From: Fibrobacter succinogenes
GTDB lineage: Bacteria > Fibrobacterota > Fibrobacteria > Fibrobacterales > Fibrobacteraceae
Assembly: GCF_902779965.1 (NCBI RefSeq)
Contig: NZ_CACZDK010000048.1
Location: 1-33,103 of the forward strand
Length of the DNA stretch: 33,103 nucleotides
Reading direction: 5' to 3'
Of the stretch, positions 180-2,725 are shown one piece after another (the first letter of the stretch is position 1; every line of letters begins with the position of its first letter). The translations under genes and the position numbers were made by a program. A model generated the notes under the pieces. It did no database searches. It was not told where the DNA came from and worked only from the letters and a program-made list of their open reading frames with translations.

Positions 180-1217
180 CTATAATTCTTCAAAGAACGC
201 GTCGGCAAGTGTGGCGCGGAACGCGTGGATGCGGTCGGCGTTGGGTTCTCGGTGCGGATAGGTGAAATTGCTGAGGAGAATGATGGCGCCTCCCTTGTCT
301 GGGTCGGCGACGATACTTGCGCCTGTGAAACCAGTTTTGCCGAATGCTTGCGGCGAAACCTTGGTGCCCATGAATCGAGGAGCGTTTAGTTCCCAACCGA
401 GGGCGGCGCAGGCGCCGAAGTTGTCGGGAAAAGCGTTGTGGCTTACGATGTCTAGAATTCCGGCGGGTATAATTTGCTTGTCCTCGAATTTCCCGTCCAT
501 GAGAATCATCTTCACGAACTTGAGCAAGTCGGGCACGCAACTGAACATGCCGGCGCTGCCGACGGGGAAGAGCTTTTGCAGGACCCAGGCGCTTTCGTCA
601 TGGACTTCACCTTGGATTTCGCGGTGGCGGAACTCACAGAGTTCTGTCGCCGCGATTTCTGATTTCGGGACACGCGTGAGCGGGTCGTAACCTGAACGTG
701 TCATGCCGAGTGGCGTGAAAAATCTTTCATTACCTTGTTCTTGCAAAGTCTTACCCGTAAGTCTTTGCAACAAAATTCCGAGCAAAACGCTGGCGGGGTT
801 TCCGTAGTTGAAAACCGTACCCGGTGCAGCGGAAAATTCGTATGTGTAAAGAACGTTGAGAATCTCTTCCGGAGAAAGTGCCGTAAGCGTTTTCATCGGG
901 ACGCGGTAATCAAGACTATGTGTGAGCAAATGCGAAACGTAAATCTCGTCGTGATAGTTTGTTTGAAGTTCCGGGATGTAATCGATGACTTTAGCGTCAA
1001 TGGAAAGCTGGCCTTCAAGAACATATGTGAGAGCTAACGTCGAAGTGGGGCAAACCTTCGTGAGCGATGCTATGTCGAAAACAGTATCTTCGGGAGTGTT
1101 CAGCGTGACGATGTTGCTTGTGCCGTCAGGGAGCAAATATCCAATGACCGCTTTGTCGAAAATATCAGAGCTTTCTGCGGCCTGTAAAAGATTTAATAGC
1201 TTTTCAGATGTTACCAT
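180..1217 (-). CDS. Beta-lactamase-fold serine hydrolase (PBP4*/EstB-like)
   Basis: 345 aa. It has the three signatures of the penicillin-binding/class C beta-lactamase-related family: the nucleophile motif S51-L-T-K54, the Y138-G-N140 motif, and K294-T-G296 in the usual order and spacing. GEVHDESAW near residue 203 is also typical of the esterase-like branch. Members are esterases, D-amino-acid peptidases or carboxypeptidases; the substrate cannot be read from the sequence. No clear signal peptide is seen, so a cytoplasmic location is likely. The start is supported by GGGGA just upstream. The ATG lies only about 12 nt after the T tract of the 6S RNA candidate and no separate promoter is obvious, so expression by readthrough from that RNA is possible. 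The family call is firm; the biochemical role is open. Confidence 0.85.
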   Translation of the reverse strand: MVTSEKLLNLLQAAESSDIFDKAVIGYLLPDGTSNIVTLNTPEDTVFDIASLTKVCPTSTLALTYVLEGQLSIDAKVIDYIPELQTNYHDEIYVSHLLTHSLDYRVPMKTLTALSPEEILNVLYTYEFSAAPGTVFNYGNPASVLLGILLQRLTGKTLQEQGNERFFTPLGMTRSGYDPLTRVPKSEIAATELCEFRHREIQGEVHDESAWVLQKLFPVGSAGMFSCVPDLLKFVKMILMDGKFEDKQIIPAGILDIVSHNAFPDNFGACAALGWELNAPRFMGTKVSPQAFGKTGFTGASIVADPDKGGAIILLSNFTYPHREPNADRIHAFRATLADAFFEEL

Positions 1218-1228
1218 TTTTTCCCCAT

Positions 1229-1396
1229 AAAAAAAAGGGCATCTCCTACGGTGCGAACACTCGAAACTACTTATCTACAATGATAGCAGCGCCTCGGGGA
1301 TTTGTTTTTCGCGTCAATGCGCGCCTAAACTGAACCACAAGAGCAACGAGCTGATTTATTCCTGTTAGATCGGGTGTAAAATCCGTGGGATGCCCG
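1229..1396 (-). ncRNA. ssrS: Candidate 6S RNA downstream of zapA
   Basis: A roughly 165-nt minus-strand transcription unit with its own promoter and a terminal U tract. The 5' end GGGCATC-CCACGG (1395-1383) pairs with CCGTAGG-A-GATGCCC (1251-1237), giving 13 base pairs with small bulges, and eight Ts follow (1236-1229). Inside, ACACCCGA pairs with UCGAGUGU with one mismatch, then comes a large, poorly paired centre with a small CGCG-capped hairpin. A long closing stem around a large central bubble is the 6S RNA architecture; 6S mimics an open promoter and binds housekeeping RNA polymerase. A position directly after zapA matches the ssrS neighbourhood known from proteobacteria. Structure, promoter, terminator and synteny all agree, but no covariance-model score is available. 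Confidence 0.65.
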
Positions 1397-1401
1397 CTTA
1401 T

Positions 1402-1430
1402 AATATATGTTTCTTATACACTAAAAACAA
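1402..1430 (-). promoter_or_regulatory. Sigma70-type promoter of the 6S RNA candidate
   Basis: On the minus strand TTGTTT (1430-1425) and TATATT (1407-1402) are separated by exactly 17 bases. The expected start, 6-7 bases further on, coincides with the first paired base of the RNA's closing stem (about 1395). The promoter lies just after the zapA terminator, so the RNA is independently transcribed. Confidence 0.65.
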
Positions 1431-1504: not shown

Positions 1505-1819
1505 TTAAACTTGGCTGTCGGCTTTGGGGAGCGCTTCGTCCAATTGGAGTGAAAGCTCCCTAATATCCTTATCCATCAGGTCGTGATACGATTTGGCTTT
1601 GCGCAATTGCTTGCGCAGCTCGACAATTTCGGAAGTGAGTTCCACAGCGAGCAAGCAGAGCTGCTTCTTCATTTCCAGTTTAAATTTCGAGGAATTATCG
1701 AGACGACTTTCGATGAAATCGACGATTTCTTTCAAGTCCGTATCGGGCAGGTCCGTGCGGATGTGGATGCGTTCTTGAGCGACGGTTATGCTGACTGATC
1801 TAAGTGTCTCGTTTGCCAT
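1505..1819 (-). CDS. zapA: Cell division protein ZapA family
   Basis: 104 aa, the usual ZapA size. The N-terminal half has the ZapA beta-rich head (SVSITVAQERIHIRTD, then LKEIVDFIESRL), followed by a long helix (LCLLAVELTSEIVELRKQLRKAKS) that in the family forms the tetrameric coiled coil. ZapA bundles FtsZ filaments at the division site. The start is preceded by AGGAA about 10 nt upstream. It lies 45 bp after a coiled-coil gene on the same strand, so the pair looks like a ZapB-like/ZapA operon ended by the hairpin at 1441-1476. The candidate 6S RNA follows, as in proteobacterial zapA-ssrS neighbourhoods. Confidence 0.8.
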   Translation of the reverse strand: MANETLRSVSITVAQERIHIRTDLPDTDLKEIVDFIESRLDNSSKFKLEMKKQLCLLAVELTSEIVELRKQLRKAKSYHDLMDKDIRELSLQLDEALPKADSQV

Positions 1820-1864: not shown

Positions 1865-2725
1865 TTAGCCGAAAAAACCGGGTTGCGAGCCTCCATTGCT
1901 CGCGAACAGGTCTGGGGTTTCGTCTTGCGGTTTGTTTTCGGGCTGAGCGGCGGGAACTTCAGGCTGTTCTTCAGCCGGCGCGTTGATATTGAATTCGGTG
2001 CCGAGCTCATTTTCGATGGTGGCAAGGAGCTGTTGGAACTTGGTCTGGGCTTCGGCAATTTCGTTGCTCTGGCTCTGGACTTGACCATTGAGGTTGTCAA
2101 TGATATCGTTCTTTTCGGCGACTTGACCATTCAGGCAATCGATGATGTTGTTCTTTTCGTTTACCTGTTCATTGAGTGAATCAATGATGCTATTCTTTTC
2201 GTTGACTTGTCCGTTGAGCGAATCAATGATGCTGTTCTTCTCGGCAACTTGTCCGTTAAGGGAATTGATGATGTTGTTCTTTTCGTTGACTTGTCCGTTG
2301 AGTGAATCGATAATGCCATTCTTCTCGGCAATTTGTCCGTTAAGGGAATTGATGGCGTTGTCTTTTTCTGCGGCTTTTCCGTTAAGGGCGTCGATGATTC
2401 CATTCTTTTCTGCAATCTGGGCATTGAGGGAATCGATAATGCCGTTCTTTTCGTTAATCTGTCCGTTTAGACTATCGATAGCGCGGCCTTTTTCGTTGAT
2501 GGCTTCGTCCTGAGCGGCTGCTTGGTTGGCTCGTGCGTTGAGAGCCGCTTCGCAGTCAGCAATCTTTGCGTTGGCAGAATCTAACAGATTTTTTTGGTTT
2601 TCGGCCTGTGCTTTGGCGCCTTCGAGAAGTTGCTTTAGCTTAGCGTTTTCTTCACGCAGGGCGCGGACCGTTCCAAGGACTCCTTCCACTTTCTGCGACA
2701 ACAAGTTCATGCTTTCAAAATTCAT
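1865..2725 (-). CDS. ZapB-like coiled-coil protein with ten 14-residue repeats
   Basis: 286 aa, soluble, predicted almost entirely helical. Residues 1-70 form a ZapB-like coiled coil (VEGVLGTVRALREENAKLKQ). Next come about ten tandem copies of a 14-residue unit, consensus xEKNxIIDSLNGQV, that is two heptads with I, L and V on the core positions and a Lys in the fourth core position. A non-repetitive stretch then leads to an acidic, Pro-rich tail ending QPGFFG. At DNA level this is a diverged 42-bp tandem repeat, so repeat number could vary by slippage. The ATG has a good ribosome site (GGAG). It is the first gene of the unit with zapA. A divisome spacer or scaffold is a reasonable inference from context; a generic coiled-coil protein is the alternative. 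Confidence 0.7.
   Translation of the reverse strand: MNFESMNLLSQKVEGVLGTVRALREENAKLKQLLEGAKAQAENQKNLLDSANAKIADCEAALNARANQAAAQDEAINEKGRAIDSLNGQINEKNGIIDSLNAQIAEKNGIIDALNGKAAEKDNAINSLNGQIAEKNGIIDSLNGQVNEKNNIINSLNGQVAEKNSIIDSLNGQVNEKNSIIDSLNEQVNEKNNIIDCLNGQVAEKNDIIDNLNGQVQSQSNEIAEAQTKFQQLLATIENELGTEFNINAPAEEQPEVPAAQPENKPQDETPDLFASNGGSQPGFFG
2069..2488. repeat. 42-bp tandem repeat array inside the coiled-coil gene
   Basis: About ten diverged copies of a 42-bp unit encode the 14-residue repeats. Recurring plus-strand blocks such as TTGTCCGTTGAG and GATGCTGTTCTT alternate. Boundaries are approximate. Differences between copies are mostly third-position or conservative. Confidence 0.7.

Follow-up and report, generated by a model that had tools for sequence, protein, structure and literature searches.

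6S RNA, which is widespread in bacteria, mimics an open promoter and in this way sequesters RNA polymerase. In E. coli the product RNA (pRNA) of 6S RNA starts at U44, and in the proteobacterial ssrS-ygfA arrangement the gene downstream of the RNA encodes a folate enzyme. The gene order zapB-zapA-ssrS has been reported for beta- and gamma-proteobacteria (PMC7641849), and for Bacillus 6S-1 RNA a collapse of the central bubble with release of the enzyme has been described (PMC8876501). A full-text search for 6S RNA together with Fibrobacter gave the name Fibrobacter only within a cited title. The locus described here lies next to zapA in Fibrobacter succinogenes and is very probably the ssrS (6S RNA) gene of the Fibrobacter family.

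Results

An RNA gene directly downstream of zapA

The window is the whole 33,103-nucleotide stretch of F. succinogenes DNA that was analysed. Directly 3' of zapA, at window positions 1395-1229 of the minus strand, it contains a single-copy 167-nt RNA gene with the following surroundings:

180-1217, minus strand: serine hydrolase (PF00144), 11 bp past the U tract
1229-1395, minus strand: very probable 6S RNA gene (ssrS), 167 nt including eight U, predicted start G1395
1229-1236, minus strand: U8 tract, likely terminator, directly after the closing stem
1402-1407, minus strand: predicted -10 hexamer TATATT, the same in 41/41 nearer homologs
1425-1430, minus strand: predicted -35 hexamer TTGTTT, with TTG here in 41/41 nearer homologs
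1445-1474, no strand assigned: inverted repeat AAAAATCTCGATA/TATCGAGATTTTT, likely zapA terminator, between zapA and the RNA promoter
1505-1819, minus strand: zapA, 104 aa (PF05164, 17.5 bits), directly upstream of the RNA
1865-2725, minus strand: coiled-coil protein in the zapB position (coiled-coil Pfam matches only; same position in relatives)

An earlier note on this DNA had proposed a TTGTTT-17-TATATT promoter, a start on the first base of the closing stem and eight Us 3' of that stem, and each of these elements was recovered. A 17-base spacer separates TTGTTT (1430-1425) from TATATT (1407-1402), and a further 6 bases separate the latter from G1395, which is the first base of the stem, the G of GGGCAUCC and the predicted start of the RNA. 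The body of the RNA without the U tract is 159 nt, from G1395 to C1237, and is followed by the eight U at 1236-1229. The pattern TTG-N3-17-TATATT, with a spacing of exactly 17 bases, was present in all of the nearer homologs (41/41), and a promoter match was present in 42/47 once distant ones were counted; shuffled upstream sequence gave about 1%. A U run follows the RNA in 37/47 homologs. Judged from these elements, the gene at 1395-1229 would be transcribed independently of zapA, and its predicted promoter and discrete 3' end are as expected of a 6S RNA.

The divergence of the F. succinogenes ZapA protein puts its PF05164 score (17.5 bits) below the cut-off of 23.8 bits, which the orthologs at the same place in other Fibrobacter pass. 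The protein in the zapB position is built of repeated units of the type EKNxIIDSLNGQV and differs in length among relatives. The RNA directly follows a same-strand zapA homolog in most of genus g1 and in g3, g4, g6, g7, g9, g10 and g11. In one clade of the genus (loci L022, L026, L027, L041, L043, L044 and L046, with further loci L048-L051, L072, L073 and L078-L080) it lies downstream of uvrC with zapA not nearby, and in genus g5 (L104, L106) it comes after apparent flagellar export genes (fliP/fliQ); in both groups the RNA gene has moved and its fold has been kept.

The short distance between the U tract and the ATG of the serine hydrolase (at 1217; 11 bp from the last U, and not the 12 given in the earlier note) could suggest that the sequence is a cis-acting leader of that gene or, alternatively, a fragment of the zapA 3' UTR, instead of a free RNA. 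However, the downstream gene changes between clades while the RNA stays: only the F. succinogenes clade keeps the serine hydrolase as a neighbour, and elsewhere the place is taken by ispA (g6, g11), folD (L134), rny (L090) or others, as named from their translations. Furthermore, the uvrC-linked clade has the RNA without zapA, the RNA has its own conserved promoter, and the inverted repeat separates it from zapA, so that a leader or UTR fragment has practically no chance of being the correct description. For the free RNA, readthrough into the serine hydrolase is plausible, since ssrS and the adjacent gene of E. coli are transcribed together (PMC7641849). A dependence of the serine hydrolase on such readthrough, which the earlier note had raised, is not conserved and would be a local feature at most, because other clades have different genes downstream.

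The fold is conserved by compensatory changes

The predicted fold of the RNA consists of the following parts:

1383-1395, minus strand: closing stem P1, 5' arm GGGCAUCCCACGG (fold of the window RNA)
1237-1251, minus strand: P1, 3' arm CCGUAGGAGAUGCCC (fold of the window RNA; covariation)
1370-1377, minus strand: P2, the helix bordering the bubble, 5' arm ACACCCGA (consensus fold)
1257-1264, minus strand: P2, 3' arm UCGAGUGU (consensus fold; covariation)
1345-1369, minus strand: 5' strand of the central bubble, whose invariant columns are CCGAU-CUAACA (start) and AGCUC (far end)
1291-1344, minus strand: terminal stem, counterpart of the upstream promoter arm (consensus fold; covariation)
1267-1289, minus strand: hairpin GCUAUC...GUAGU in the 3' strand of the bubble (99.4% of cells paired)

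With a closing stem, a large central bubble, a terminal stem and a length of 167 nt, the RNA has the outline and size (about 160-200 nt) of a 6S RNA. The fold energy of the window sequence is unremarkable (z = -1.28, with 24 of 200 shuffles as good) and not significant; therefore the outline seen in a single sequence proves little alone and is weak evidence on its own.

Comparison with relatives, one of the checks proposed in the earlier note, was clearly positive. Of the 33 pairs in the consensus structure, 15 show two-sided change, and 51 two-sided compensatory cells were counted compared to 14.4 +/- 2.9 in shuffles (0/500 reaching the observed number). Sliding the structure along the alignment gave at most 24 double-change cells, as opposed to 51 at the true register. 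Compensatory changes occur in 5 of the 6 P1 pairs of the consensus structure, and pairs in P2 swap across genera (C-G/U-G/U-A and A-U/U-A; G-U/G-C/A-U). The hairpin in the 3' bubble strand has a pair probability of about 0.9 in the window RNA. By contrast with the helices, which vary, the bubble strands are nearly frozen: CCGAUCUA-CA, AGCUC, GCUA and GUAG, and UCGAG. Covariation or conserved pairing in the aligned sequences shows a fold with P1, P2, the bubble, the terminal stem and the 3'-strand hairpin.

The anatomy given in the earlier note was nearly exact, with two qualifications. The closing stem does contain the 13 pairs described but is interrupted, two bases bulging on the 3' side; and the large open centre exists as a bubble but holds a predicted second helix, the terminal stem and the 3'-strand hairpin inside it.

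The apical hairpin of the terminal stem differs from clade to clade. In one Fibrobacter clade (L041, L046, L048-L051, L053) it is expanded by about 40 nt, giving an RNA near 199 nt, and the U tracts after the closing stem of these loci are weaker.

Reciprocal models lead to accepted 6S RNAs of the phylum

A search of 1229-1396 (minus strand) with the Rfam 6S model RF00013, which the earlier note had put forward as a check, was negative in both window and genome: there was no match in 1100-1550 at E<=10 and nothing in the whole 4.1-Mb genome. Rfam 15 gave no gathering-level match in the window, and the Rfam search of seven Fibrobacteraceae relatives gave no 6S match at E<=10. Weak plus-strand matches (STnc430 and similar; E<=10) arise from the zapA terminator hairpin. 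SRP RNA, RNase P RNA and tmRNA all have matches above gathering score at other places in the genome, and therefore the window RNA is none of these.

Across the phylum, RF00013 found 6S RNA in 25/151 genomes, all of them outside Fibrobacteraceae (families f4, f7, f8, f9, f10 and f12), with three above the gathering score of 46.4 bits and others close to it; this score is a detection threshold and not a biological feature. The Fibrobacteraceae genomes that carry the window-type RNA gave no match with RF00013, and the window-type RNA is absent from the RF00013-positive families.

Covariance models were then used in both directions. R1 was built from 34 non-redundant Fibrobacteraceae copies, R2 only from RF00013-detected 6S RNAs and R3 only from Fibrobacteraceae RNAs; an alignment, A3, was left out as it contained two antisense matches. 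Run unfiltered over 15 Fibrobacteraceae loci, R2 ranked the RNAs of g11 (E 2.9e-4) and g6 (E 5.6e-4) highest, such E-values being rough for the custom-built models R1-R3. These two RNAs are the most divergent of the family, and both were matched over their full length and on the correct strand; they were followed by g9 (rough E 0.023) and g1 (rough E 0.054); on the window copy itself it was weak (8.3 bits, rough E 1.1). Conversely, R3 was run over 20 loci with RF00013-related 6S RNA, and by its similarly rough E-values the three best matches, each located where the 6S RNA lies and on its strand, were L091 (4.1e-4), L134 (0.0011) and L125 (0.0022); L119 (0.15) came next. R1 gave nothing above background on the RF00013-positive loci, and the broader R3 was needed. 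L091 belongs to the same class as Fibrobacter and scores 39.8 bits with RF00013; L134, of the same class (family f3), has RF00013 as its best Rfam match (E 0.029); and L090, of another class (family f8), scores 40.6 bits. R2 and R3 agree both ways in place, strand and full length. The sequence comparison thus supports homology to accepted 6S RNAs, reached through intermediate genera rather than from the window sequence directly, and divergence of the sequence accounts for the lack of an Rfam match.

The gene neighbourhood bears on the same question. In L090 the RF00013-positive RNA begins 11 bases past a ZapA gene (PF05164, 55.7 bits), and in L134 the RNA lies directly after a ZapA gene (PF05164, 44.7 bits). 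The statement that the RNA follows zapA, as 6S RNA often does, therefore holds on both sides of the bridge formed by the models. In L134, positions 1501-2606 read zapA-6S-folD; a folate enzyme after 6S RNA recalls the proteobacterial ssrS-ygfA order, folD being named from its translation only.

Since no Rfam family matches, and since the long unpaired stretches that do not vary (CCGAUCUAACA, AGCUC) might act as seeds, the gene might alternatively encode a structured small RNA of unrelated origin, such as a base-pairing regulator, that by chance lies after zapA and has a 6S-like outline. It is difficult to reconcile this with the reciprocal matches, which fall at the 6S place in RF00013-positive genomes, with the zapA neighbourhood common to both sides, or with the fact that RF00013-type and window-type RNAs replace each other by family. 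Furthermore, the invariant stretches lie on the bubble strands, and many of the RF00013-detected 6S RNAs, those of family f10, have GA-CUAACA where the 5' bubble strand starts, together with a matching 3' strand, so that CUAACA occurs at the same place in both. An unrelated RNA is highly improbable on this evidence. An RNA of the Ms1 type, which has a 6S-like shape but targets core polymerase and not the sigma holoenzyme, must also be considered. Ms1 is structurally related to 6S RNA (PMC9130861), and a binding target is not readable from sequence; but Ms1 is described from Actinobacteria (PMC9130861), and here the homology is to 6S RNAs that RF00013 detects in the same phylum. That the RNA is of the Ms1 type is extremely unlikely. 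The reciprocal models, the shared zapA neighbourhood and the covariation together strongly support the identification, first offered in the earlier note, of this gene as the ssrS of its lineage.

Distribution in Fibrobacteraceae

BLASTN with the window RNA found matches in 80/101 genomes of the family, and with R1 a single match per genome was obtained in 88 Fibrobacteraceae genomes, which span nine genera, the distant g5, g6 and g11 included. The RNA is therefore single-copy and near-universal in the lineage, as 6S RNA would be, with genera g2 and g8 and family f2 lacking a match. In these three groups there was no credible 6S match with R1, R2 or R3; a few R2 matches in g2 and g8 looked like chance on inspection, the one in g2 lying inside a protein-coding ORF. 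The genomes concerned are G002 (g2; 99% complete), G008 (g8), and G149 and G152 (f2), whose 6S RNA is either still more divergent or lost.

Discussion

Proposed mechanism

By homology to 6S RNA, the following mechanism can be proposed. The sigma-70-type promoter would start an RNA of roughly 160 nt at G1395, and the U tract after the closing stem would end the transcript. The RNA would mimic an open promoter and occupy the housekeeping sigma-RNA polymerase holoenzyme when growth stops, which would lower transcription from many promoters. When nutrients return, the polymerase would copy the 5' bubble strand into a short pRNA of the predicted sequence AUCGGGUGUAAAAU, with synthesis probably starting at U27 (window 1369) within CCGAU. 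CCGAU is invariant in the 34-sequence alignment and the same letters occur in the 5' bubble strand of E. coli 6S RNA (checked), which together suggest this start and product. Synthesis of the pRNA would open P2, and the freed 3' arm of P2 may then pair with the conserved AGCUC in the far part of the 5' bubble strand, leading to bubble collapse and release of the enzyme. In the window RNA the predicted probability of the collapse helix GCUCG/CGAGU increases from 0.002 to about 0.6 upon blocking of nucleotides 14-27. Across the 34 relatives the helix is predicted in some and not in others and is weak in many, and because of this the collapse step is kept as a hypothesis. The CUAUC motif was considered as a possible -10 mimic, but the TG before it is not conserved.

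It is also conceivable, although improbable, that the Fibrobacteraceae 6S RNA has gained an extra lineage-specific role through a second protein partner or through base pairing with a target. If true, this would explain why the bubble strands (CCGAUCUAACA, AGCUC, GCUAUC...GUAG) are nearly frozen across genera while the helices vary.

Comparison with known 6S RNAs

This RNA is a divergent, hitherto unrecognised lineage of 6S RNA and ordinary in kind. The Rfam 6S model is silent in Fibrobacteraceae, and the family had seemed to be without a near-universal regulator of RNA polymerase, a gap that the gene described here would fill. It would provide a tractable regulator in an important rumen cellulose degrader, and an alignment of the Fibrobacteraceae RNAs would let annotation pipelines detect the gene. 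The zapA-ssrS order, described for beta- and gamma-proteobacteria (PMC7641849), would also be extended to Fibrobacterota.

Compared to the RF00013-detected 6S RNAs of the phylum (L081-L092, L134), the RNA is alike in length, closing stem, bubble, terminal stem and U tract; zapA is upstream in L090 and L134 also, and the Fibrobacteraceae and f10 RNAs have GA-CUAACA in common at the border of their 5' bubble strand. However, the Fibrobacteraceae sequence has diverged below detection by RF00013, its P2 is ACACCCGA/UCGAGUGU and not CUUGA/UCAAG, and, unlike the others, it has the hairpin GCUAUC/GUAG fixed in the 3' bubble strand. With E. coli 6S RNA (ssrS) it shares CCGAU in the 5' bubble strand and the zapA-ssrS order (PMC7641849), but RF00013 finds no sequence match and the downstream gene in Fibrobacter is not ygfA. 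No sequence similarity to B. subtilis 6S-1 RNA is expected, and in Fibrobacter a collapse helix is predicted for some relatives only; nevertheless, a small preformed hairpin in the 3' strand of the bubble is common to both RNAs, as is a possible collapse helix that joins the 3' arm of P2 to the far part of the 5' bubble strand (PMC8876501).
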